The position numbers were made by a program, and so were the translations under genes. Under the pieces are notes generated by a model. The model worked only from the letters and a program-made list of their open reading frames with translations. It searched no databases and was not told where the DNA came from. Below, piece by piece: positions 47,150-62,128 of a stretch of 64,000 bases of DNA. The stretch covers positions 2,232,001-2,296,000 of the forward strand of contig NZ_CP141614.1 in the NCBI RefSeq assembly GCF_035593265.1. The letters are read 5' to 3'. How positions within the stretch are numbered: the stretch's first letter is position 1; every line of letters begins with the position of its first letter. This stretch comes from Limnochorda sp. LNt (GTDB lineage Bacteria > Bacillota > Limnochordia > Limnochordales > Geochordaceae).

Positions 47150-48763
47150 TCAGAAGGAGATCTTCGTCGCCAGCGAGATGGTCGTGGACTCCGCCGAGGT
47201 CGGATTGCTTCCGAACACCGGCAACGAGTACGCGGTCCGACCGACCTTCGCCGTGACGCTCGCGCTGTCGCTCACCTTGTAGCTCGCCGCGAGGCTCAGC
47301 TCCAGGGAGGTCACGTTGCCGTCAACGCCGTCGCCGTACTTGTCGTCGGTGTTCTTGAAGTAGTCGTTGGCTTCGTCGTACTGCTGCAGTACGACCGAGA
47401 TGTCACCGTACGAGTGGTACGCGAAGGCGGGCGTGACGGTCAGCCGGTCGCTGAGCTTGTACTCGACGCCGCCGCCGATCTTGAAGTGGGACTTCGCCCA
47501 GTAGCGGTAGCGGTCGATGTCATCCTTGTAGACGCCAGCTGTCGCCGTCTCTTCGAACTTGCTCGTATTGCCGCCCCACGTGACGCTCCCGGGATCGAAG
47601 TAGTACGGAACGTCCCCGATTGTGATCTCGGTGAGTTCGACGATGGACGCGCCCTCAGCGAAGGCCCCGATGTCGCCGTCCTTGTCGGACTCGGTCACGA
47701 AGTCCAGGTTCAAAGTAGCCACGTCGGGCAGGAGCGCGAACTTCACCGAGCCAGTGATGGACGTCAGGGGATTCGGCGTGGCCGTTCCTGCGCCAACTTC
47801 GATGTTGCGGTTTTGGCGGGTGGTGACGCCCAGGCTGGCCTCAATGGGATCGCCCGCGTACTTGACCGTCGCACCCATCGACCCCTGCCGCACAACGCCG
47901 CTGGAGGTCAGAGTCTCCCGGCTAAAGCTACCGGTAATGGTGAACGGAGCGAGGGAGTAAGTCGCGCTGGCGCTCAGGAGGGTCCGATCCTTGCTGCCAT
48001 ACGCGAATCCTGCCGGGAAGTTAGCCTGGGCCGTCGCGTAGCTCACGCTGCTCTTCAGGCCCTCGATGGGCGTCAGCTCGGCCTTGGCGCCGAAGGCCAA
48101 GCGATCATCCTCAGCCTCGGTGGTCGCGCCGACAGCACCGGAGACCTTGGCCAACCCAAGGTCGACCGTTGCATAGCCGGCCAGGCGGAAGTTAGTCTTG
48201 CCCGCGGTGGAGCTCGGGATCACCGGCCGCACGTACGCGCCCACGGTGACCGGGGCCAGGTCGACACTCGCTCCGGCCGTCACGCCGTTCACGCTGTCAG
48301 CTTGCACCAACAGATTCGTGCCTGCCACGGCAGACTCGAGTCGGACCTGGCTAGCATCCGCCCCGTCGAAGACCACCGGATCGTTGATCACGATCAGGCT
48401 CAACGGATCGGACACGCGGCTGAGCTGGAACGTGTTGCCAACGTCCTTGGCGACGCTGACCTTCAGGCTTGAGGTGGCGAGCGACGCCTTCCCATACGGT
48501 GTCAGCTCGTTCTCAACCACCAGCGTCGCGTCCAGGGACCAAGCGTCGCCCTGGGAAGCCTCCGCCTTGAGTCCGAATTTCGGGCTGAAGTCGAGCCCGG
48601 GCCCATTGTCGGGTTTGTCGAAGTTGGTGGTATCGACGGTCGAGCTGGTCGACAGCTCAAACGACCCGCCGATGCTTGCGGTTACCTCCGCGGCCTCCTC
48701 TGCGGCGACAGGCACCGCCGCCGCCAGCAACGCTACCAGCACCAGCGTGAGAGTGCGTCGCAT
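47150..48763 (-). CDS. Secreted beta-barrel, outer-membrane porin-like protein
   Basis: 537 residues. A signal peptide (RRTLTLVLVALLAAAVPVAA, cut before EEA) is followed by alternating polar/hydrophobic strands rich in Ser, Thr, Ala, Gly and Val, with no transmembrane helix, and the last residue is Phe (ATKISF), the usual signal for insertion by BamA. No clear family is recognised; it could be a porin or a surface fibre protein. Codon use is more varied and A/T-richer by eye than in the neighbours, which could mean transfer or different selection. ATG 48763 has GGGGAGGAG upstream. A long leader precedes it and a terminator follows. Confidence 0.7.
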   Translation of the reverse strand: MRRTLTLVLVALLAAAVPVAAEEAAEVTASIGGSFELSTSSTVDTTNFDKPDNGPGLDFSPKFGLKAEASQGDAWSLDATLVVENELTPYGKASLATSSLKVSVAKDVGNTFQLSRVSDPLSLIVINDPVVFDGADASQVRLESAVAGTNLLVQADSVNGVTAGASVDLAPVTVGAYVRPVIPSSTAGKTNFRLAGYATVDLGLAKVSGAVGATTEAEDDRLAFGAKAELTPIEGLKSSVSYATAQANFPAGFAYGSKDRTLLSASATYSLAPFTITGSFSRETLTSSGVVRQGSMGATVKYAGDPIEASLGVTTRQNRNIEVGAGTATPNPLTSITGSVKFALLPDVATLNLDFVTESDKDGDIGAFAEGASIVELTEITIGDVPYYFDPGSVTWGGNTSKFEETATAGVYKDDIDRYRYWAKSHFKIGGGVEYKLSDRLTVTPAFAYHSYGDISVVLQQYDEANDYFKNTDDKYGDGVDGNVTSLELSLAASYKVSDSASVTAKVGRTAYSLPVFGSNPTSAESTTISLATKISF

Positions 48764-49106
48764 TCTGCTCCTCCCCTGTATCGGAATATGGGAACACACA
48801 CCAGCTAGACGCTTCGCGACAAGACCTAGCGGCGAATCCGCGGATGCCTGCGAAGCCGAGCCCGGAGAAGTCTCCCTGTTTCCTTCCCCGCAGAACCCCG
48901 CCTCATGGGCATCGGGGTCCGCCGCGTCGTTACGATCCTTTTCCCTTTCCGCCACCTCCCCTGCGGCCTGGTTTGTCCCCTCGAAATCGTGGGCCCACGG
49001 CGTCGTGCCGTTTACGCCCCCGGATTTCGATGGCTGATGGGAAATTCCTTCTCCTGGGTGCGTGCTCAGGGGTGGGAAGAGGAGGAGCCGGGCGCCATCG
49101 CGCGAA
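48764..49106 (-). other. Gene-free leader of the first porin-like gene
   Basis: Upstream of the porin-like ATG there are about 340 nt with no supported gene. The frame stays open here only by chance; its translation is low-complexity. The region holds GGGGACAAACC and GGTGGCGGAAAGGG blocks on the minus strand, and at 48869-48884 the 16-mer AGGAAACAGGGAGACT, which recurs in the leader of the second porin-like gene. I could not assign a riboswitch class or a promoter. Confidence 0.4.
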
Positions 49107-49135
49107 CGAGCCCCGGGACCACCTCCCGGGGCTCG
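49107..49135 (-). repeat. Perfect 12-bp GC-rich hairpin
   Basis: CGAGCCCCGGGA (49107-49118) pairs with TCCCGGGGCTCG (49124-49135) around a 5-nt loop. It has no T-run. It may end the second porin-like transcript or bound the leader of the first. Confidence 0.55.
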
Positions 49136-49207
49136 CCACCTGCCCGCCGGGGGCGGGCGCCGGCCCGCGTCACGACCCCCCTGGGTGGGAGCGGGCAGGT
49201 GAGAGCG

Positions 49208-49235
49208 GGTGGGGGCCGCCTGGGCGGCACCCACC
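49208..49235 (-). terminator. Hairpin just after the second porin-like gene
   Basis: A 13-position stem with one mismatch (49208-49220 with 49223-49235) begins about 20 nt after the stop codon at 49255-49257. There is no T-run, so if it terminates it is not a classical Rho-independent site; with the hairpin at 49107 it makes a double barrier. Confidence 0.45.
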
Positions 49236-49254
49236 TCGCAACGGACCGGGCCCG

Positions 49255-50568
49255 TCAGAAGGAGGCCTTGAGGCCCGCCTCCACCTTGGCCCCGTCCACC
49301 GAGTCGTGCTCGACCGACACCGAGAGCCCGCTGGGGGCCGTGTAGCGCACGCCGGCGCCCCAGGTCAGCTGGCCGTCGGTCTCGCGGGTCAGCCGACCGC
49401 TCAGCCCGATGCCGGGCAGCTGCGGCACGACGTCGACGGTGGCCTCGGCGCTCAGCTCGTGCTCAACGGCGTCGGTGCCGTAGAGGGTGGCCTTGTAGGT
49501 CGGGACCACCATCAGCCCGGGCCGGGCCACGGGGTAGGCCACCGAGAGGCTGCTCTCGATGGGCGCCCGCTGCAGCAGATCCCACTGGGTCGAGCCGCTC
49601 AGCTGCGCGCCGCGCAGGTGGGTGGCAGCCGCCAGGGCGATCTCACGGTGCTGGGTCGGGGCGGCGATGGGCCGGCCGTCCTCGTCGACCCACTTGTCGT
49701 AGAGGTCGACGCCGGCGGCCAGGTTGACGCCGCGCTGGACGGTGTTGACGGCCACGGTCACGCCGTGCTCGCCGCGGTTGTCGGCCAGCCAGCCGTACTC
49801 GTTGCCGTCCTCGTCAAACGCCCGGTAGACCGGCATGAAGGTGTTCCACACCTTGCGGTAGCCGGCGGCCACCGTCAGGTCCGGCTGCAGCTGGACCTGG
49901 GCGTCGATGCGGCTCAGCTGGGGCACGTCGGAGCCGCTGGTCTCGGAGCGGGCGTAGATGCCGCTCACCGTGACGCCGGGCACGGGCATGGCCGCGGCCG
50001 CCAGCTCCAGGTCGTAGCGCCCGTTGACGTTGAGGGCCGTGGCGGCCAGGCCCGCCTGCGGCAGGGCCGCGCGCAGCTGGGCGCCCACGACGGTGTTGTC
50101 GCGGCTCACGGCCACGTCACGGCCGGCGAAGGCCGACAGCCCCACCGGGCCGTAGCCGATCCCGGAGATGGAGAGGCCCTCCTCGGCGAACTGGCCGATG
50201 TAGGGCGAGTAGGCCACGTCGAGGCTCCCGATGCGGGCCGTGGCGGGCGCGCCGCCGCGCCAGAGCTGCCCCGTCGCCTCGATGAAGGCCCGGGTGATGT
50301 TGACGGAGGCCACCGAGTCGGTCAGGCCCGGGTACCAGACGGGCGAGGCCGTCACCTCGGCCCGCAGGCGCCGCTCAGCGGTGCCCGTCTGGGCGCCGAT
50401 GGTGAGCTCGGTGGAGGTCGAGAGCCCCCGCGGGCCCTCGTCGGTGGCCTGCTGCCGCCAGGTGAAGCCCCCCTCCAGCGAGCCCGACAGCTCGAAGCCA
50501 GCCGCCAGCGCCGGCCCCGACAGGGCCGCCACCAGCAGCGCTGACAAGACGACTGCCAGCTTCTTCAT
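49255..50568 (-). CDS. Second secreted beta-barrel, outer-membrane-like protein
   Basis: 437 residues. Signal peptide KKLAVVLSALLVAALSGPALA, then long amphipathic strands with Arg/Glu/Gln facing outward patterns, no helices, and a terminal Phe (GLKASF). It shares no obvious sequence with the first porin-like protein but the same design. Codon use is GC-rich like the rest of the window, unlike its neighbour. ATG 50568 is preceded by a purine-rich site at long spacing. Function not recognised: a general porin or structural barrel is plausible. Confidence 0.68.
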   Translation of the reverse strand: MKKLAVVLSALLVAALSGPALAAGFELSGSLEGGFTWRQQATDEGPRGLSTSTELTIGAQTGTAERRLRAEVTASPVWYPGLTDSVASVNITRAFIEATGQLWRGGAPATARIGSLDVAYSPYIGQFAEEGLSISGIGYGPVGLSAFAGRDVAVSRDNTVVGAQLRAALPQAGLAATALNVNGRYDLELAAAAMPVPGVTVSGIYARSETSGSDVPQLSRIDAQVQLQPDLTVAAGYRKVWNTFMPVYRAFDEDGNEYGWLADNRGEHGVTVAVNTVQRGVNLAAGVDLYDKWVDEDGRPIAAPTQHREIALAAATHLRGAQLSGSTQWDLLQRAPIESSLSVAYPVARPGLMVVPTYKATLYGTDAVEHELSAEATVDVVPQLPGIGLSGRLTRETDGQLTWGAGVRYTAPSGLSVSVEHDSVDGAKVEAGLKASF

Positions 50569-51083: not shown

Positions 51084-51107
51084 AGGGCCCGCCTCGAGGC
51101 AGGCCCT
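51084..51107 (-). terminator. Rho-independent terminator of the DUF2089 operon
   Basis: On the minus strand AGGGCCTGCC pairs with GGCGGGCCCT around TCGA (10 bp, one G-U), followed by TTCTCATT. It lies 46 nt after the stop of the holin-like gene. Confidence 0.8.
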
Positions 51108-51152: not shown

Positions 51153-51503
51153 TCAAGCCCCCGCGTCCTGCACCAGCCACCCGATGGCGCCGCTGACCAG
51201 GCTGAGCAGGATGCTGCCCCACAGGGCCGCCCAGAAGCCGTGCACCTCGAAGCCCGGCACCAGCCCCGCCGTCAGCCACAGCATCAGGGCGTTGACCACC
51301 AGGGTGAAGAGTCCCAGCGTCAGCACGTTGAGCGGCAACGTCAGCAGCAGGAAGACCGGCCGCACGAAGGCGTTGACCAGACCGAACATGGCGGCGGCCA
51401 GCAGCGCCGCGAAGACGCCACCCAGCCGGATGCCCCCCAGCAGTCCGCCCACCACCAGCAGCGCCACCGCATTGATGAGCCAGCGACCCGCCCAACCCCG
51501 CAT
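51153..51503 (-). CDS. Phage-holin-family small membrane protein (YvlD-like)
   Basis: 116 residues with four helices and the family features INAVALLVVGGLLGGIRLGG and LVNAFVRPVFLLLTLPLNVLT. These proteins (the DUF360/YvlD group) are not phage genes; in B. subtilis yvlD belongs to an envelope-stress operon with yvlB. Here it is the last gene of a DUF2089/DUF4097/SHOCT-like operon that resembles the yvl operon. ATG 51503 has GGAGG upstream. Confidence 0.88.
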   Translation of the reverse strand: MRGWAGRWLINAVALLVVGGLLGGIRLGGVFAALLAAAMFGLVNAFVRPVFLLLTLPLNVLTLGLFTLVVNALMLWLTAGLVPGFEVHGFWAALWGSILLSLVSGAIGWLVQDAGA

Positions 51504-51542
51504 CGGATCCGTTGCCTCCCTGCCATCCGCTCCGCGAGCGCG

Positions 51543-51980
51543 CTACTCCACCGTCACCTCGACGCCGTTGTCCTCGTCGTCCCGCACCACCAGGATCCGG
51601 CCGCTGGCCCCGTGCTCCACCTGCTCCAGCAGCGCCTCCAGGTCGACCCCGGCCAGGTAGCGCTGGGCCCGCGCCGGCACCAGCCGCAGGGCGGAGCGCG
51701 CCAGGCTCAGGGGGATGTTGAGGTGGACCCGCTCCTCGTCGTCCTCCACGATGCGGATGCGCAGGATGCGGCCCCGGCCCCCGGCCGGAGCGCGGGCGGG
51801 CTCCGGCGCCCGCCCGGCGCCCCTCCGCCGGTGGCGCCCCAGCGCATCCAGCAGGGCCAGGGCCTGCTCGGGCGTCACCTTGCCCTGCTGCACGAGCCGC
51901 AGGATCCGCAGCCGCTCGTCCTCCGCCCCGCTCTCGCCGCGGGCCTGCGGCGAGGGCGGCACCGCCGGTGGCACCGTCAC
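51543..51980 (-). CDS. SHOCT-like domain protein
   Basis: 145 residues, GTG start. The N-terminal third carries ERLRILRLVQQGKVTPEQAL, the SHOCT-like module found at the N-terminus of YvlB/LiaX proteins. The rest has two beta-strand patches (ILRIRIVEDDEERVHLNIPL and ILVVRDDEDNGVEVTVE) and a hydrophobic middle, with no membrane helix. The same module occurs in the two neighbouring genes. It is probably a cytoplasmic partner in the same response. Confidence 0.75.
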   Translation of the reverse strand: MTVPPAVPPSPQARGESGAEDERLRILRLVQQGKVTPEQALALLDALGRHRRRGAGRAPEPARAPAGGRGRILRIRIVEDDEERVHLNIPLSLARSALRLVPARAQRYLAGVDLEALLEQVEHGASGRILVVRDDEDNGVEVTVE

Positions 51981-51995
51981 GGGAGGTCGCCCCTC

Positions 51996-53313
51996 TCAGT
52001 CCGCCTCGATGACGGCCGAACCCTGCCGGGTCGAGGCCCGCACCCAGACGGTCCGGGCCGCCTGCTCCAGGTGCGGGCTCTGGTAGACGGCTCGCTGGTG
52101 GCCCACCGCCCGGGTCGTCTGCGAGATGGCCACGCCGTCGGGCAGCTCGATGCGGGCCGACCCCCACGCCGTCGTGGCCTCCAGGGAGAGCCCCACCTCG
52201 CCCCGGGCCGCCGCCCGGGCCGTCTCCGTCGGCAGCGCCACCGGACGCTGCCGTCGACGGTGCGGGCCTCGACCCGCTGCCGGGATCCGCCTCGCCCGGC
52301 GCCGCCAGCGGCCGCACCGTCACGGCCCCGTTGACGCTCGACGCCTCGAGCTCGTCGGCGGCCACCGCCCCGGTGACGCTGCCGTTGGTGGAGCGGGCCT
52401 CCACCCGCTGGGCCTGCACCCGCTCGAGCAGCACGGCGCCGTTGGTGCTGGTGGCGCTCACGCGGCGGGCGCTCACGTCGGCCAGGTCGAGCCGGCCGTT
52501 GGTGGAGCGCACCTCCACCGCGTCGCCGGCCACGCCCCGCGCCGAGACGCTGCCGTTGGCCGTGGAAGCCCGCAGCGAGACGGCCATCTCCGACGAGAGG
52601 ACGAGCTCGATGCCCACCGCGTGCCCCGGACCCCAGCGCCAGTCGCCGTCGGTGGCGCGAACCGCCAGGTGCCCGGGCCCCCGGTCGATCTCCACCAGAT
52701 TGGCGGCCTCCTGCTCGGCCTCCTCGCGGCTGCGAGCCCTTATCCGCCGCTCCACCCGCAGCCGCCAGCCCCGCGGGCCGCCCACCTCCGCCCCCGGCAC
52801 GCCCACCACCCGGATGCTACCGTTGCCGGTGGCCAGCTCCACGACGGGCACCGCGCCCTCGGCGAAGTCGCCCGCCAGCTCCTGGGGCATCACGTGCTCG
52901 GGGTAGGCGCTCCGCCCCAGCTGGCCGAAGGCCCGCGCCATGCGCTCCGCCACCGTGCGCCCGATCTCCTCGAGCCGCTCGCCCACGTCGGTCAGCCGCT
53001 CCTGCACCGCCGGGTTGGAGAGAGCCCGGGAGACCCGCTCGCCCAGCTCGTCGGCCAGCTCGCCCATCCGGGAGGCCGTCGACTCGACCCAGCCCATGAA
53101 GTCGCTGCCCCGCTCGCCGCTCTCTGGCGCCCTGGCACCCTCCCCGGCGGGGGCCCCCGCCTGCAGCGCCTTGAGCAGTTCGAGGGCCTGCTCGGGCGTG
53201 ATCCGCCCGCTCTCCAGCATCCGCAGGATCATGCGGCGCTCCTCGGCCAGCTCGCCGCCGCCCGTCTCGCCGCCCTCACCGGGCGGCCTGCCGCCGTGCT
53301 CCCGCTCGTCCAT
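51996..53313 (-). pseudogene. DUF4097 (adhesin-like, YvlB/LiaX-type) protein, frameshifted as given
   Basis: From ATG 53313 (GGAGGGGG upstream) the order is a SHOCT-like module (ERRMILRMLESGRITPEQAL), a linker with a coiled-coil region, and a DUF4097 beta-helix with repeating VEVRSTNGRLDLADV-type rungs (TNGAV, TNGSV, VNGAV). Reading as given breaks down after about residue 345; the last rungs (VEARTVDGSV, then ALPTETARAAARGEVGLSLE to the stop at 51996) are in two other frames, with changes near 52285 and 52243. In enterococci LiaX senses cationic peptides at the surface; whether this protein is exported is unclear because no signal peptide is visible. Confidence 0.78.
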
Positions 53314-53355
53314 GACCGCTCCCCCTCCGCCTCCGTGGTCAGAGCTCGCCCGCGC

Positions 53356-53790
53356 TCACGACGCCCCGCCCGAGCCGCCGCCCCGCAAGCGCCGCAGGGC
53401 CTCCTCCGCGTCGATCTCGCCTCGCTCCAGCGCCTCCAGCACGGCCCGCCGCTCCGACGCCGTCGCCCGGGGCGGCGCCGGCGCCTCCTGCGGGCTCTCC
53501 TGCTCCGCCGGCCGCGCCGGCCCGTGGCCCAGCGCCTCGATGACCGACTCCAGGCGTGCCCGCACGGCCGGATACGACATCCCCAGCATGCGCTCCATCT
53601 CCCGCAGGTTGCCCCGCGCCACGATGAAGAGCTCGGCGAACTGCCGCTGCTCCGCGGTCAGCGAGCAGAACGAGCAGAGCGCGAAGTCGCCCTCGATGGC
53701 CGTGCCGCAGTCGGGGCAGCGCAGCCGCTGCACGGCGAGACGCGTCCCGCAGATGGGGCATCGACCCGGCACCACCGGTCGCTCGGCCAT
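53356..53790 (-). CDS. DUF2089 regulator with zinc ribbon and SHOCT-like tail
   Basis: 144 residues. A zinc ribbon (CPICG...CPDCG) and a second CSFC pair open the protein. A helix-turn-helix-like part follows (EQRQFAELFIVARGNLREME, then RMLGMSYPAVRARLE), which resembles sigma-region-4/HTH folds. The C-terminal segment ERRAVLEALERGEIDAEEAL is the SHOCT-like module again. ATG 53790 with GGAGGTGG upstream. First gene of the operon behind the promoter at 54027; probably a regulator of the operon. Confidence 0.85.
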   Translation of the reverse strand: MAERPVVPGRCPICGTRLAVQRLRCPDCGTAIEGDFALCSFCSLTAEQRQFAELFIVARGNLREMERMLGMSYPAVRARLESVIEALGHGPARPAEQESPQEAPAPPRATASERRAVLEALERGEIDAEEALRRLRGGGSGGAS

Positions 53791-53959
53791 GGGCCCACCT
53801 CCGCCACCAAGCATCCGCCTCCGGTACGTCCCCCATCCCTCGGCCCGTCGAGGCCCGCCCATCCGGTCGGCTGGCGGCCACCAGCCGGTCCACGGCGGCC
53901 TCCCGGATGAGCCGCTCCAGCCGCGCACGGGCCAGTTCGTAGACGAGCCACGGGTGCAT
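53791..53959 (-). other. Possible small ORF before the DUF2089 gene
   Basis: From ATG 53959 the frame reads MHPWLVYELARARLERL and a basic helix (IREAAVDRLVAASR), which looks like short actinobacterial MHP-type helical proteins. No stop occurs before it runs into DUF2089, and its ribosome site is weak. Either a real small protein whose stop has been lost or a chance frame; support is thin. Confidence 0.25.
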
Positions 53960-54026
53960 GAGATCCAAGGCGCCCACCCCTCTTCCGGGCCGGGCGCCGC
54001 CGGCGGCATCCCGTCTGCCGAACACA

Positions 54027-54055
54027 ACATTAAACTCGTATGTGAAGGATGTCAA
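54027..54055 (-). promoter_or_regulatory. Strong sigma-A-type promoter of the DUF2089 operon
   Basis: Minus strand TTGACA (54050-54055, perfect), 17-nt spacer, TAATGT (54027-54032). It lies in the most A/T-rich stretch of this part of the window, about 240 nt before ATG 53790, so the mRNA would have a long leader or encode the small ORF at 53959. Confidence 0.7.
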
Positions 54056-54127
54056 TATGGCAGATTAACATCGATGAGGGTGGCGTGACAGTGCGGGCGG
54101 GATCGGAGCCAGTCTTCGAGTGCCAGG

Positions 54128-56243
54128 TCACTCCGGCCGGGCCGCCGAGCGCACGCCCTGGTAGACCCGCTCGGCCACCGCCCGGGGCAGCCCCGGCACG
54201 GCCAGCAGCTCCTCCAGCGTCGCCTCCCGCACGCGCTTGACCGAGCCGAAGTGCTCGATGAGCTGCTTCTTGCGCTTGGGCCCCACGCCGGGGATCTCGT
54301 CGAGGGTCGAGCGCACCGCCCGCCGCTCCCGGAGCTGGCGGTGGTAGCCCAGCGCGAAGCGGTGGGCCTCGTCACGGATCCGCTGCAGCAGGTGCAGCGC
54401 GTACGAGTCCCGGGGCAGCTCGATGGGGTCCGGCTCGTCTTCCACGAAGATCTGCTCCAGGCGCTTGGCCAGCCCGATGGCGGGGATCTCCTCGTCGAGC
54501 CCCAGCTCCCGCAGCGCCTCCCGGGCGGCGCCCAGCTGCCCCTTGCCCCCGTCGATGAGGAGCAGGTCGGGCAGCCGCGCGAACTTGGCCTCCGCCTCGG
54601 CCTTGCGCAGGCGCGCCTCCAGCTCCGGGTCGGCCCCGTCCCGGGCCTCGATGCGGCGGCGCAGGGCCTCCAGCGCCTCCCGCTCCTCGAGGCCCCGGGC
54701 GAAGCGCCGCCGCACGGCCTCCTTCATCATGGCGAAGTCGTTGGGCCCGCCCGTCAGCCGGATCTTGAAGCGGCGGTAGTCGGCCTTGTTGGGCTCGCCG
54801 TCCTCCATCACCACCATGGAGGCCACGGCGTCGGTGCCCTGGATGTTGGAGATGTCGAAGGCCTCGATGCGCCGGGGCACCCGGTCGAGTCCCAGCACGT
54901 CCTGCAGCGTGGCCAGCGCCCGCTCCTTCTCCGCGGCGCGCCGGTCGGCCTGGCTGCGCAGCTCCTGCAGCACCAGGGCGGCGTTTTCGGCCGCCATCTC
55001 CACCAGGCGGCGCCGGTCGCCCCGCTTGGGCACCACCAGCCGCACCCGGGAGCCGCGCCGCTCGCTGAGCCAGCGCTCGATGAGCTCCGGCTCGTCGACC
55101 GGGTGCTGCAGCGTCACCGACGGTGGCACCGACGGCGTCTTGTCGTAGAACTGCTGGACGAAGGAGCTCATCACCTCGGTGTCGGAGGTGGACTCGGTCG
55201 TCTCCAAGATGAAGTGGTCGCGCCCGATGAGCTTGCCGCCCCTCACGTAGAAGACCTGGGCGCAGACGGTGTCGCCGAAGCGGGCGAAGGCCGTGACGTC
55301 CTGGTCGTCCTCGCCGGCGGTCACCACCTTCTGGTGCTCGACCACCTTCTCCAGGGCCCGGATCTGGTCCCGCAGCCGGGCCGCCTGCTCGAACTCGAGC
55401 CGCTCCGCCGCCTGGCGCATCCGCGCCTCGAGAGCGGGGATGATGCGGTCCTGGCGCCCCTCCAGGAAGAGGCAGACCTGGTCGATCATCTGCCGGTACG
55501 CCTCGATGGTGGTGCGCATCGCGCACGGCCCCAGGCACCGACCGATGTAGTACTGCAGGCAAAGGCGATACTGCCGCTTGCCGTCGAGGGGCAGGTCGCA
55601 GGTGCGGATGGGGAAGAGCTTGCGCAGGAAGCGCAGCGTCTCCCGCAGGGCCGTCGAGTTGGTGTAGGGGCCGAAGTAGCGGGCGCCGTCGTCCTTGATG
55701 CGCCGCACCACCAGCACCCGGGGAAACGGCTCGTCGAGGGTCACCTTGAGGTAGGGGTAGGCCTTGTCGTCGCGCAGCTTGACGTTGTACCACGGCCGGT
55801 AGCGCTTGATGAGGTTGGACTCCAGCACCAGCGCCTCGATCTCGGAGGCGGTGACGATGTACTCCAGGTCGGCGATGTCGGCCACCAGCGCCTCCAGGCG
55901 GGGGCTCGACGCCCGGCCCGCCTGGAAGTAGGAGCGCACCCGGCTGCGCAGCGACGAGGCCTTGCCGACGTAGATGACCTCGCCGGCGGCGTTCTTCATC
56001 AGGTAGACGCCCGGGCGCGCCGGCAGGCGCGCCAGCTCTCCTCGAGGCCGAGGCCGGCGGTGGCGGTCGGCTCGGCGCGGCCCGTCGGCCGCCTCCCGTC
56101 AGGCGACGGGCGGGCGACGACATGGCCTCGGAGGCGCGCCCGGGAGCGACCGGCTGCGGCGGCGGATCGGGCAGGGCCTCCGTCTCCTCGCGGCTGTGGC
56201 GGGTCAGCTTGGTCAGGCGCACCATCACGTCTCGACCCGCCAT
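54128..56243 (-). CDS. uvrC: Excinuclease ABC subunit C; 5' end frameshifted as given
   Basis: Makes the two incisions in nucleotide excision repair. N-terminal GIY-YIG nuclease (PARPGVYLMKN, VIYVGKASSLRSRVRSYF), UVR/UvrB-binding helix region (RLEFEQAARLRDQIRALE), RNase H-like nuclease domain (AFDISNIQGTDAVASMVV, LLIDGGKGQLGAARE) and C-terminal helix-hairpin-helix (LDEIPGVGPKRKKQLIEHFG). The first in-frame ATG (55999) lies after the GIY half-motif, which cannot be the true start. Upstream coding is in another frame from ATG 56243, so a frame change near 56045 is needed. Separated from uvrA by two coat-like genes. Confidence 0.93.
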
Positions 56244-56328
56244 CAGGATAGCACAACGGGAGGCCCCGGCCCGGCGCCGGCGCCTCCCGCCCTGCTGCCA
56301 GCCGCCCGCCCCTGCGGGACGGCCGGGG

Positions 56329-56748
56329 TTAGCGAGACTCCCGCAGATTCTGCTGGAGGCTCTGGAGGGTCGAGGGGGCCTGCCAGCTCCCGCCCGCCGG
56401 CTGGCCCGCCTGCCACGAGGGGCCGGTGGGGGGCGTGCCGGACTGGGCCTGCCAGGCGCCCGTGGGGGTGGGCTGCCAGGCGGTGCCGGCCTGCGGCGCC
56501 TGCCACGCCCCGGTCCCCTGCAGCGTGTAGGGCTCGTTGAAGGCCCAGTCGCCCGGCACCCGCGGATACCACCCCCGCTGCTCCATGAGGCGCAGGAGCT
56601 GGGTGTGGAGATCCTCGTGATCCCGCAGCTGCCCCAAGAAGAGCGGCTTGAGGTCCGGCGAGGCCTCCGCCGCGAAGACCGTCTCCATGAAGCTGATGTA
56701 CTTGAGATCCTTGACGACGTCCAGGCAGACGTCTCGATCCGACAGCAT
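56329..56748 (-). CDS. CotF-like spore coat protein with tryptophan-repeat tail
   Basis: 139 residues. The first 70 are the coat-F helical domain (LSDRDVCLDVVKDLKYISFM, PLFLGQLRDHEDLHTQLLRL). After GWYPRVPGDWAFNEPYTLQG the tail repeats a W-Q-A/P unit at least six times (GAWQAPQAG, GTAWQPTPTG, AWQAQSG, PSWQAGQ, GSWQAPS), which I do not know from other CotF proteins. ATG 56748 is chosen; GTG 56775 overlaps the previous stop region. Acts in the spore coat or on the cell surface during sporulation. Placed between uvrA and uvrC. Confidence 0.72.
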   Translation of the reverse strand: MLSDRDVCLDVVKDLKYISFMETVFAAEASPDLKPLFLGQLRDHEDLHTQLLRLMEQRGWYPRVPGDWAFNEPYTLQGTGAWQAPQAGTAWQPTPTGAWQAQSGTPPTGPSWQAGQPAGGSWQAPSTLQSLQQNLRESR

Positions 56749-56775
56749 GGGCGAGCGAGCGCCTCCTTCCCTCAC

Positions 56776-57039
56776 TCACGGGGTCCAGCGCGCGCCGATC
56801 GGGCCGCCGCCCGGCCCCGACAGCTGCTGCAGCGACGGCTGGGCGCCGCCCAGCTGCTGCTGGAGCTGCCCGCGGGTCGTCGACAGCGTCGCCAGGTGGC
56901 GCTGGTGCATGCGCGCCGCGTCCTGCAGCAGGTGCCGGATGACGGGGTCCTGCACCTGCTGGGCGAAGAAGTTGGCCTTGCTCATCAGGAGCTGGATCTC
57001 GTGGGCCGTGTGGTTGACCAGGTCCAGGTCTCGCAGCAT
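56776..57039 (-). CDS. Small helical coat-like protein
   Basis: 87 residues, mostly helical: [20 protein letters not shown] and [20 protein letters not shown], then a Gln/Gly/Pro-rich tail. The pattern fits one half of the ferritin-like coat-F fold, and it sits directly before the CotF-like gene. Probably a paired spore coat component. ATG 57039 has GAGGGGAGAG upstream. Its first 55 nt overlap an unlikely C-terminal extension of uvrA. Confidence 0.65.
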
Positions 57040-60000
57040 GCCGACTCTCCCCTCGCCGAAGCGGTGGCACGCCTGCCGCGCCGCGCCGCCGCGGGCGCTG
57101 CCAGCGGCATGGCCGATGCCCCAAGGGGAGCATGCGCGAGGAGGGATCGCCCCATGCGGGCCACCGGGTCAGCTGCGGCCGGGTCGACGCCGGGAGGCGG
57201 CCGCCCGGCGGGCAGGGGCCGTCGGCCGCGGCCGGCAGAGCCGCCACCGTCGACGTCCCCGGCGATGCCCAGCACGGGCCGCAGGTAGAGCCCCGTCCAG
57301 GAGCCGGGCGTGCGGGCCACCGCCTCAGGGGGCCCCTCGGCCACCACCCGGCCGCCGCCCTCGCCGCCCTCGGGGCCCAGGTCGATGATCCAGTCGGCGC
57401 ACTTGATGACGTCGAGGTTGTGCTCGATGACGACGACGGTGTTGCCGGCGTCCACCAGCCGCTGCAGGACGTCGAGGAGCTTGCGCACGTCGTCCATGTG
57501 GAGCCCCGTGGTGGGCTCGTCGAGGATGTAGATGGTGCGGCCCGTCTCCCGGCGGCTCAGCTCCGTGGCCAGCTTGACCCGCTGGGCCTCGCCGCCCGAG
57601 AGCTGGGTGGCCGGCTGGCCCAGGCGGATGTAGCCGAGCCCCACGTCCTGCAGCGTCTGCAGCTTGCGGTAGACGGCCGGGATGTGGCGGAAGAACTCCA
57701 CCGCCTCGTCGACCGTCATATCCAGCACGTCGGCGATGGTCTTCTCCTTGTAGCGGATCTCCAGGGTCTCCCGGTTGTAGCGCTTGCCCTTGCAGACCTC
57801 GCAGGGCACGTAGACGTCGGGCAGGAAGTGCATCTCGATCTTGATGATGCCGTCGCCCTGGCACGCCTCGCAGCGCCCGCCCTTGACGTTGAAGCTGAAA
57901 CGCCCCGGCTTGTAGCCCCGGGCCCGGGCCTCGGGCGTCAGGGCGAAGACCTCCCGGATGCCGGTGAAGGCTCCCGTGTAGGTGGCCGGGTTGGAGCGGG
58001 GCGTGCGCCCGATGGGCGACTGGTCGATGGCGATGACCTTGTCGAGGTGCTGCAGGCCCAGGATGGCGTCGTGCTCGCCGGGGCGCACCGTGGTCACGCC
58101 GTTGAGCTCCCGGGCCAGCCGGGCGTAGAGGATGTCGCCCACCAGCGTGCTCTTGCCGGAGCCCGACACCCCCGTCACGCAGACGAAGAGGCCCAGGGGG
58201 ATGCGCACGTCGATGCCCTTGAGGTTGTGGTGGCGGGCGCCCCGGATCTCGAGCCACCGGTCGCCGGGCGGGCGCCGCAGAGCCGGCACCTCGATGCGGC
58301 GCTTGCCGCTCAGGTACTGCCCCGTCACCGACCGGGGCTCGGCCATCACCTGCTCCAGCGTGCCGGCCACCACCACCTCGCCGCCGTGCACCCCGGCGCC
58401 GGGCCCGATGTCGATGATGAAGTCGGCCTCGCGGATGGTCTCCTCGTCGTGCTCCACGACGATGACGGTGTTGCCCAGATCCCGCAGGTGCTTGAGGGTG
58501 TTGAGCAGGCGGCGGTTGTCGCGCTGGTGCAGCCCGATGCTGGGCTCGTCGAGGATGTAGAGGACGCCCACCAGCTGGGAGCCGATCTGGGTGGCCAGCC
58601 GGATCCGCTGCGCCTCGCCGCCCGCCAGCGTGCCCGCCGCCCGGTCCAGCGTCAGGTAGTCGAGCCCCACGTCCACCATGAAGGAGAGGCGCGCCCGGAT
58701 CTCCTTGAGCACCTGAGCGGCGATGGCCCGCTCCCGCTCGGTCAGGCGCGCCTCCAGGGTCTCGAACCACGCCAGCGCCTGCCGCACCGACATGGCCGTC
58801 ACCTGCATGATGTTGAGCCCGCCCACCGTCACGGCCAGGCTCTCCCGCCGCAGGCGGGCGCCCCCGCAGTCGGGGCAGGGGCGGGAGCTCATGTAGGCCT
58901 CGATCTCGCTGCGGGCCCACTCCGACTGGGCGTCGCGGTAGCGCTCCTCCAGGTTGGGGATGACCCCGGGGAAGGGGTGGGCGTACGTCTTCTCCTGGCC
59001 CGAGAGGGTCCGGTACCGGAACGTGATGGGCCGCCCCCGGGTGCCGTAGAGCAGCACGTCGACCTGCTCGGGGCTCAGCTTGCCGATGGGCTTGCGCGGG
59101 TCGATGCCGTACTCCCGGCAGGTGGCCTCCAGCAGCGTGTGCAGCCAGCGGCTGCCGTTGTCGGCCCAGGGGCGGATGCCGCCGTCGACGACGCTGCGGG
59201 AGCGGTCCAGCACCAGCTCGGGGTCCACCTCCATGCGCACCCCCAGCCCGCTGCAGGTGCGGCAGGCCCCGTAGGGGCTGTTGAAGGAGAACATCCGGGG
59301 CGAGATCTCCTCGAAGCTGAAGCCGCACGTCGGGCAGGCGAAGCGCTCGCTGAAGGTGAGCACCGATCCGTCGCCGCCCACCACCTGCGCCATGGCGATG
59401 CCCTCGCCCCGGCGCAGGGCCGTCTCCATCGAGTCGGCCAGCCGGCCCGCCACGTCGGGGCGCACCACCACCCGATCCACCACGACCTCGATGGTGTGCT
59501 TCTTGTGCTTGTCGAGCTCGGGCACCTGGGCGACGTCGTAGACCTCGCCGTCGACCCGCACCCGCACGAAGCCGTCCTTGCGGATCTCCTCGAAGAGCTT
59601 GCGGTACTCCCCCTTGCGCCCCCGCACCACCGGCGCCAGGATGACCAGGCGGGTCCCCTCGCCCAGGGCCAGCAGCTGATCCACCATCTGCTGCACCGTC
59701 TGCTGGGCGATGGGCTGGCCGCAGTTGGGGCAGTGGGGCCTGCCGATGCGGGCGAAGAGCAGCCGCAGGTAGTCGTAGATCTCGGTGACGGTGCCCACGG
59801 TGGAGCGGGGGTTTTGGCTCGTCGTCTTCTGATCGATGGAGATGGCCGGCGAGAGCCCCTCGATGAAGTCCACGTCGGGCTTGTCCATCTGGCCCAAAAA
59901 CTGGCGCGCGTACGCCGACAGCGACTCGACGTAGCGGCGCTGCCCCTCGGCGTAGAGGGTATCGAAGGCCAGCGACGACTTGCCCGAGCCCGAGACCCCC

Positions 60001-60095
60001 GTGATGACCACCAGGCGATCCCGGGGGATGGTCAGGTCGATGTTTTTGAGGTTGTGCTGGCGAGCCCCTTTGATGACGATGGCCTTGCTGCTCAT
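56985..60095 (-). CDS. uvrA: Excinuclease ABC subunit A; C-terminus extended as given
   Basis: Damage-recognition ATPase of nucleotide excision repair with two ABC modules. First Walker [21 protein letters not shown], zinc modules CPTCGF...CRTCSG and CEACQGDG...CEVCKG, signatures [14 protein letters not shown] and [14 protein letters not shown], second Walker [15 protein letters not shown] 60095 overlaps the uvrB stop (ATGA). Normal UvrA ends soon after GLYLRPVLG; here about 85 low-complexity residues follow and run into the next gene, so a stop was probably lost to a frameshift near 57230. Confidence 0.95.
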
Positions 60096-62128
60096 GCCGG
60101 CACGAACCCGTGGAGCTCCTGGCGCAGGGCCTTGATCTGGTCGCGCAGCTCGGCTGCCCGCTCGAAGGCCAGCTCCCGGGCTGCCTGGTACATCTCCTCC
60201 TCCAGGCTCCGGATCAGCGCGGCCAGCTCGTCGGGCGCCATCTCCTTGGCCTTGCGCTGCAGGCTCCGCAGGCTCCGATCCTTCTCCTGCTCCTGCTCGG
60301 CGCGCCACGCCTGCACGATGTCGGTGACGGCCTTCTGGATGGTGCGCGGGACGATCCCGTGCTTCTCATTGTACTCCAGCTGCAGGCGCCGGCGCCGGTT
60401 GGTCTCCTCGATGGCCCGCCGCATGGACTCGGTGACCGTCTCGGCGTACATGATCACCTTGCCCCGCACGTTGCGGGCCGCCCGCCCGATCATCTGGATG
60501 AGCGAGGTCTCGGAGCGCAAGTAGCCCTCCTTGTCGGCGTCGAGGATGGCCACCAGCGACACCTCGGGCAGGTCGAGGCCCTCTCGCAGCAGGTTGATGC
60601 CCACCAGCACGTCGAACTCGCCCAGCCGAAGCCCCCTCAGGATCTCGACCCGGTCCAGCGTCTCCACCTCCGAGTGCAGGTAGCGCACCCGGAAGCCCAT
60701 GTCGGCCAGGTAGTCGGTCAGGTCCTCGGCCATCTTCTTGGTCAGGGTGGTGACCAGCACCCTTTCGCCCCGGCCCACCACCTCCCGGATCTCGTGGATC
60801 AGGTCGTCGATCTGCCCCTGGATGGGCCGCACCGACACCTCCGGATCCACCAGGCCCGTCGGGCGGATGATCTGCTCGACGATCTGCTGGCTGCGCTCCC
60901 GCTCGTAGGGACCGGGCGTGGCCGAGACGAAGATGACCTGGTTGATGTGCCGCTCCCACTCCTCGAAGCGCAGCGGTCGGTTGTCGAGGGCCGAGGGCAG
61001 GCGGAAGCCGTACTCCACCAGCGTCCGCTTGCGGGAGTAGTCGCCGTTGTACATCCCGTGCAGCTGCGGGATGGTCTGGTGCGACTCGTCGATGAACATG
61101 AGGAAGTCGCGGGGGAAGTAGTCGAGCAGCGTGGTGGGGGTGGAGCCCGGCGGACGCCCGCTGAGGTGGCGCGAGTAATTCTCGATGCCGTTGCAGTAGC
61201 CCACGGTGGCCAGCATCTCCAGGTCGAAGCGGGTGCGCTGCTCGAGGCGCTGGGCCTCCAGCAGCTTGCCCTGGGCCTTGAAGTAGGCGAGGCGCTCCTC
61301 GAGCTCCTCCTCGATGGTGACCAGCGCCCGCTTGAGCTTCTCCTCGGTGGTGACGTAGTGGGTGGCCGGGTAGATGGTGACGGTCTCGGGCTCGCCCAGC
61401 ACCTCGCCCGTCACCGGGTCCAGCTCCAGGATCCGGTCCACCTCGTCGCCGAAGAACTCGACCCGCAGCACGCTCTCCGAGTAGGCGGGGTAGATCTCGA
61501 TGGTGTCTCCCCGCACCCGGAAGGTGCCCCGCTTGAAGCCGATGTCGTTGCGCTCGTAGTGGATGCCCACCAGCCGGCGCAGGATGTTGTCACGATCGCG
61601 AAAGTCGCCGTGGCGCAGGCTCAGGGTCATGCCCACGTAGTCGTCGGGCGAGCCCAGGCCGAAGATGCACGAGACGCTGGCCACGATGACGACGTCGCGC
61701 CGCTCGAAGAGCGCGCTGGTGGCCGCGTGGCGCATCCGGTCGATCTCGTCGTTGATGTTGGCGTCCTTCTCGATGTAGGTGTCGGTCTCGGGCACGTACG
61801 CCTCGGGCTGGTAGTAGTCGTAGTAGCTGACGAAGTAGTGCACCGCGTTGCGGGGGAAGAACTGGCGGAACTCGTTGGCCAGCTGCGCCGCCAGGGTCTT
61901 GTTATGGGCGATGACCAGGGTCGGCCTCTGGACGCGCTCGATCACCTTGGCCATGGTGAAGGTCTTGCCGCTGCCGGTGACCCCCAGGAGCGTCTGGTAG
62001 CGCAGCCCCTCCAGCACGCCCCGGCTCAGCGCCTCGATGGCCTTGGGCTGATCGCCGGCCGGCTCGAAGTCCGAGACGACCTCGAATCGGCCCGGCAACT
62101 GCTCGGTGTCCCGGGCCGCTACGCCCAT
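60092..62128 (-). CDS. uvrB: Excinuclease ABC subunit B
   Basis: Helicase-like damage-verification subunit, 678 residues. Walker [15 protein letters not shown], the beta-hairpin region [19 protein letters not shown], motif [14 protein letters not shown], motif [22 protein letters not shown], and the C-terminal UVR helix [20 protein letters not shown] that binds UvrC. ATG 62128 with GGGGAGG 9 nt upstream; earlier in-frame starts would place the promoter inside the gene. First gene of the uvrB-uvrA transcript, with a LexA-like site overlapping the start of transcription. Confidence 0.96.

Follow-up and report, generated by a model that had tools for sequence, protein, structure and literature searches.

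A Toastrack operon headed by DUF2089 in Limnochorda: a SHOCT-like module in three proteins and a conserved direct-repeat array at the DUF2089 promoter

Analysis of a 64,000-nucleotide stretch of the Limnochorda sp. LNt genome (contig NZ_CP141614.1, positions 2,232,001 to 2,296,000; hereafter the window) reveals a four-gene operon headed by a DUF2089 regulator, in which three of the encoded proteins carry a SHOCT-like module; both the gene neighbourhood and an array of tandem direct repeats at the DUF2089 promoter are conserved in other genomes. The operon is probably a one-component envelope-stress system, Psp/Lia-like and of the DUF2089-Toastrack kind already described (Ravi et al., 2024), in which DUF2089 would regulate its own transcription through the array and the module would link the Toastrack protein, the small SHOCT protein and the membrane. 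The features are as follows (window coordinates):

51084–51107, minus strand: terminator-like hairpin at the operon end (hairpin scan, one found against 0.3 expected)
51153–51503, minus strand: YvlD/LiaZ-like membrane protein (PF04020, Pfam E 1.8e-35; several TM-like stretches)
51543–51980, minus strand: small SHOCT protein, helical hairpin (17–54) plus C-terminal α/β domain (72–144) (Pfam, AlphaFold2)
51996–53313, minus strand: DUF4097/Toastrack protein with an N-terminal SHOCT-like module (Pfam; alignment with the relative L037)
53356–53790, minus strand: DUF2089 regulator with a zinc ribbon, a sigma4-like HTH and a C-terminal SHOCT-like module (Pfam, AlphaFold2, Foldseek)
53948–53968, minus strand: site where a small leader ORF may begin (LDLMHPWLVYELARARLERLIREAA...), a weak candidate resembling an ORF 5′ of DUF2089 in L037, in two genomes only
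54027–54055, minus strand: sigma70-type promoter TTGACA-17-TAATGT (read by eye)
54040–54072, minus strand: candidate DUF2089 operator with half-sites GATGTTAAT / ATTGACAT / CTTCACAT, overlapping the −35 box (sequence, motif model)

The four genes (51153–53790), which are separated by short gaps and have purine-rich stretches 5′ of their starts, were found by Pfam where the original prediction had placed them, all on the minus strand and including the YvlD-like protein. The DUF2089 protein matches the zinc ribbon PF22747 and the HTH PF09862 over cut-off, as well as the SHOCT-like family PF22746. None of the operon proteins matched PspC in the Pfam scan, and no LiaI-LiaF-TM gene was found in the operon. 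PspA is likewise absent from it, the single PspA gene of the genome lying ~137 kb away at 2422898–2423551; the genome also has a single DUF4097 gene. Adjoining the operon, at 47150–50568, the translations suggest two secreted proteins, β-barrel-like or S-layer-like, a possible sign of an unusual envelope. On the other side, uvrC and uvrA occupy 54128–60308; at 13 related loci as well as in the window, uvrC sits 5′ of DUF2089 on the same strand, 125 bp to 2.9 kb away and often preceded by uvrA, and this pairing of the stress operon with excision repair genes is a conserved synteny. Between the promoter and DUF2089, the leader-ORF candidate (53948–53968; L037:3569–3817) encodes an LARARxExxxREAA stretch in the window and in the same-family relative, and the two also have GATGCCGCCGGCGGCGCCC (53992–54011) in common in the DUF2089 leader region.

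The module family PF22746 (“SHOCT-like_DUF2089-C”), whose Pfam name ties it to DUF2089, matches the Toastrack protein (E 3.5e-11), the small protein (5e-10) and DUF2089 (6.6e-6; 26 bits in the protein scan, 1 below the cut-off of 27, and 28 bits, above it, in the genome scan). Copies over the Pfam cut-off number three in the 3.02-Mb genome, all in this operon and one per protein. The expectation that the three proteins share one sequence pattern is borne out insofar as PF22746 occurs in all of them, beyond chance, but its wording does not extend to DUF2089, whose copy (ER..VL..LE.GEIDAEEAL.RL) has EIDAEEAL and lacks TPEQAL. Modules of the same gene across genomes have a mean identity of 51%, compared with 43% for different genes within one genome, indicating that the modules are old and gene-specific; recent duplication or gene conversion is ruled out, since the modules group by gene rather than by genome. 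No protein with two modules, which would allow single-chain modelling of module-module contacts, was found. TM-like or signal-like hydrophobic stretches are absent from all three module proteins, and the sequences therefore lend no support to the “surface-type” location that had been suggested for the Toastrack protein.

Structure models were made for single chains only. The AlphaFold2 model of DUF2089 (mean pLDDT 84) has a zinc ribbon, an HTH and a C-terminal hairpin; its predicted HTH appears to resemble region 4 of ECF sigma factors (Foldseek probability 0.99, rmsd 2.0 over 49 residues, but E 0.2). The model of the small SHOCT protein (mean pLDDT 81) combines the helical hairpin with the C-terminal α/β domain, which is not in Pfam, and a fold search with this protein gave no convincing match among solved structures. 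Sequence searches found no solved relative of either protein.

DUF2089 exceeds its cut-off in 81 of the 249 sampled genomes of the phylum, and the set recurs at the majority of the phylum's DUF2089 loci. Forty-five loci were sampled with their flanks, 41 with the module in DUF2089 and four without. A same-strand neighbour bearing the module accompanies DUF2089 in 39 of the former and in none of the latter (39/41 versus 0/4); the neighbours of module-bearing DUF2089 include the small SHOCT protein (34/41), Toastrack-class proteins (22/41) and YvlD (18/41). Like neighbourhoods also occur outside the phylum, on contigs of Cloacimonadota, Deinococcales and Acidobacteriaceae, in a DUF2089 search of genome contigs that returned only five distant loci; the Deinococcales and Acidobacteriaceae DUF2089 proteins lack some or all zinc-ribbon cysteines. 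The neighbourhood is conserved across genomes, including the three outside groups. Together with the protein families and published work, this gives good support to the original prediction's view that the genes form an envelope-stress operon with a helical module in common.

The covariation of module and neighbours fits modules that may work together. A credible alternative, to which we give somewhat less than even weight, is that the module anchors each protein separately to the membrane or to a complex, with no mutual hook, as proposed by Ravi et al. (2024). That study (PMC11237479) places SHOCT-like domains at the Toastrack N terminus, proposes that they are anchored at the inner leaflet of the membrane and proposes membrane-stress signalling. 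The presence of exactly one module per protein also speaks for this alternative, and the gene-specific module signatures are as expected with separate contacts. A general anchor, however, needs no module-bearing neighbours, whereas the presence of the module in DUF2089 goes with theirs.

The DUF4097 gene is not a single open frame: the frame running from 53313 shifts twice, at ~52.33 to ~52.24 kb, before resuming to the stop at 51996; an intact 407-residue relative (L037, from the same-family genome G190) aligns on both sides of the frame changes with ~50% identity. That the system in the window is partly dead, with the Toastrack gene a pseudogene and the operator decayed, is conceivable but in our judgement unlikely: the two frame changes and the degenerate window copy of the promoter array (5 of 21 positions mismatched against the template) would agree with it, whereas the remaining three genes are intact and similarity to the relative runs through both flanks with no wider decay. 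Given the similarity of the flanks, assembly errors or a very recent lesion are just as likely as such decay.

The region 5′ of DUF2089 at ~60 loci carries tandem TTRAYAT half-sites in direct repeat, with spacings of alternately 9 and 12 bp and hence a 21-bp period. An inverted-repeat operator was sought with a simple palindrome search, which turned up no site common to the loci. The direct repeats emerged instead when the 330 nt upstream of DUF2089 at 34 loci were put through a motif search, which returned ATTrACATTATTAA with a score of 136, against 40–48 in six shuffles. Under leave-one-out motif models, each trained with the locus under test excluded, the top-scoring site anywhere in the locus lay upstream of DUF2089 in 22 of 38 loci (the window among them), and a site in this position was among the top four in 33 of 38. 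Exact half-sites in the array analysis numbered 86 (16 expected), half-site pairs with one mismatch allowed were ~10–20 times more frequent than expected at 9, 12, 21, 30 and 42 bp, and a three-site template with up to three mismatches matched 16/34 promoters, compared with 0.07 in shuffles.

The initial suspicion of this half-site came from visual inspection of a few loci, the window among them, so the tests that carry weight are a held-out set and a genome scan. The 28 held-out DUF2089 promoters, unused in motif discovery, contain 44 exact half-sites against 7.7 expected, and one-mismatch pairs at 9, 12 and 21 bp number 24, 15 and 32, against ~1 expected for each (1.1 at 21 bp). Allowing no more than one mismatch, a scan of the 249 genomes placed the array upstream of DUF2089 in 11 of them; most other matches lie inside ORFs, and once the DUF2089 matches are subtracted the count is near that of a reversed-pattern control. 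Intergenic control DNA from the same loci (22 kb) has 1.2 half-sites per kb and zero phased exact pairs. In some loci the AT-rich intergenic background works in favour of an AT-rich motif, though the GC-rich loci L061 and L064 score equally strongly. The array is absent or weak at L060, L077, L080 and L038, its copy in the nearest relative, L037, is vague, and L055, where DUF2089 lacks the module, has it with three mismatches, so that array and module are not strictly tied. A promoter array over DUF2089 is apparently unreported; the passages of Ravi et al. (2024; PMC11237479) used for comparison do not mention one.

The −35 box TTGACA coincides with the middle half-site of the array, and TTGACA occurs in the middle site only. 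In the window the array reads GATGTTAAT-ctgccat-ATTGACATC-CTTCACAT (54040–54072), directly after the uvrC stop codon, and ranks first of 13,000 positions under a motif model trained without the window; the TTGACA-17-TAATGT promoter was not listed by a stricter consensus scan. The sole other exact genome match to the promoter motif TTRACATNNTTNAYAT is upstream of an ABC-2-type transporter operon at ~1.14 Mb (L095:4190–4225; G000:C1, about 1141697–1141712), where most bases over ~30 nt are common with the DUF2089 promoter. The same pattern in relatives gave mostly coding-sequence matches, none at a homologous transporter, and a regulon that might reach beyond the operon to this transporter is a lead only.

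Position and family suggest DUF2089 as the protein that would bind the array. We regard it as improbable that another factor reads it, or that it amounts to no more than a strong sigma70 promoter whose upstream elements are AT-rich and phased: the overlap of the central half-site with the −35 box, the AT-richness of the motif and the partial array of the module-less L055 would be compatible with this, but the half-site and its 9/12-bp phasing are specific, phased exact pairs are lacking from the remaining intergenic DNA of these loci, and the genome-wide matches outside DUF2089 promoters are mostly within ORFs.

In the autoregulatory reading that we prefer, DUF2089 would be a one-component transcription factor that acts on the phased TTRAYAT repeats at its promoter and so controls the operon; because the −35 box doubles as the central half-site, it probably acts as a repressor. 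Through the hairpin present in all three, the Toastrack and small SHOCT proteins would probably contact either DUF2089 or a membrane site that they have in common. With YvlD supplying the membrane component, damage to the membrane would change the amount of free DUF2089 on the array. The exchange of module partners between DUF2089, Toastrack and the small SHOCT protein that this would entail is the least certain step. A more elaborate version, which we put forward as speculative and rather doubtful, has DUF2089 molecules side by side on the 21-bp-period array, neighbours touching through the SHOCT-like module, with the Toastrack and small SHOCT proteins competing for that contact and stripping DUF2089 from the array under membrane stress.

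The original prediction regarded the set headed by DUF2089 as undescribed, which is incorrect: Ravi et al. (2024; PMC11237479) report a four-gene Toastrack context with a ZnR-HTH-SHOCT DUF2089 across bacterial lineages. The window operon resembles that context, as given there, in the ZnR, HTH and SHOCT-like domains of DUF2089, in a Toastrack gene within the same operon (frame-changed here, intact in L037) with an N-terminal SHOCT-like module, and in the recurrence of the neighbourhood in other lineages; it differs in being closed by a YvlD/PF04020 gene, with no PspC or LiaI-LiaF-TM gene.

Similar to yvlABCD of Bacillus subtilis, the window operon encodes a DUF4097 protein with an N-terminal SHOCT-like module (SHOCT-like domains are reported for YvlB) and a YvlD-type PF04020 membrane protein, but yvl includes a PspC protein (YvlC) and the window operon does not. 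To our knowledge, the yvl operon has no DUF2089. YvlB interacts in two-hybrid assays with Yvl proteins, PspA and LiaH (PMC9239133), and the yvl operon is at least partly under sigmaW (PMC12791056). In liaXYZ of Enterococcus faecalis, controlled by LiaFSR, the PspC protein LiaY and the holin-like LiaZ stand beside LiaX (PMC11601895). The LiaX model matches the Toastrack part in the window and, weakly, the small SHOCT module; the whole-protein LiaX cut-off, however, is not reached and, because there is no PspC match, we do not file the operon as yvl or lia. Control by PspF-PspA or LiaFSR offers a further parallel, as membrane-stress operons whose regulator, here too, may be held by a partner, but DUF2089 is a small zinc-ribbon HTH protein, neither an enhancer-binding protein nor a two-component system. 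Our literature search found no tested function or target for DUF2089. Short DUF2089-family proteins are listed alongside membrane and transporter genes in gene clusters for leaderless bacteriocins (PMC10707071, PMC7332713), another link between DUF2089 and membrane damage.

To an operon of a kind already described, the present work adds the frame changes in the DUF4097 gene and a conserved promoter array that suggests self-control by DUF2089. DUF2089 regulators are widespread, and with a conserved candidate operator at hand a simple binding assay can test their role directly; the operator would also turn the proposed link from envelope stress to transcription in Toastrack systems into a defined circuit.
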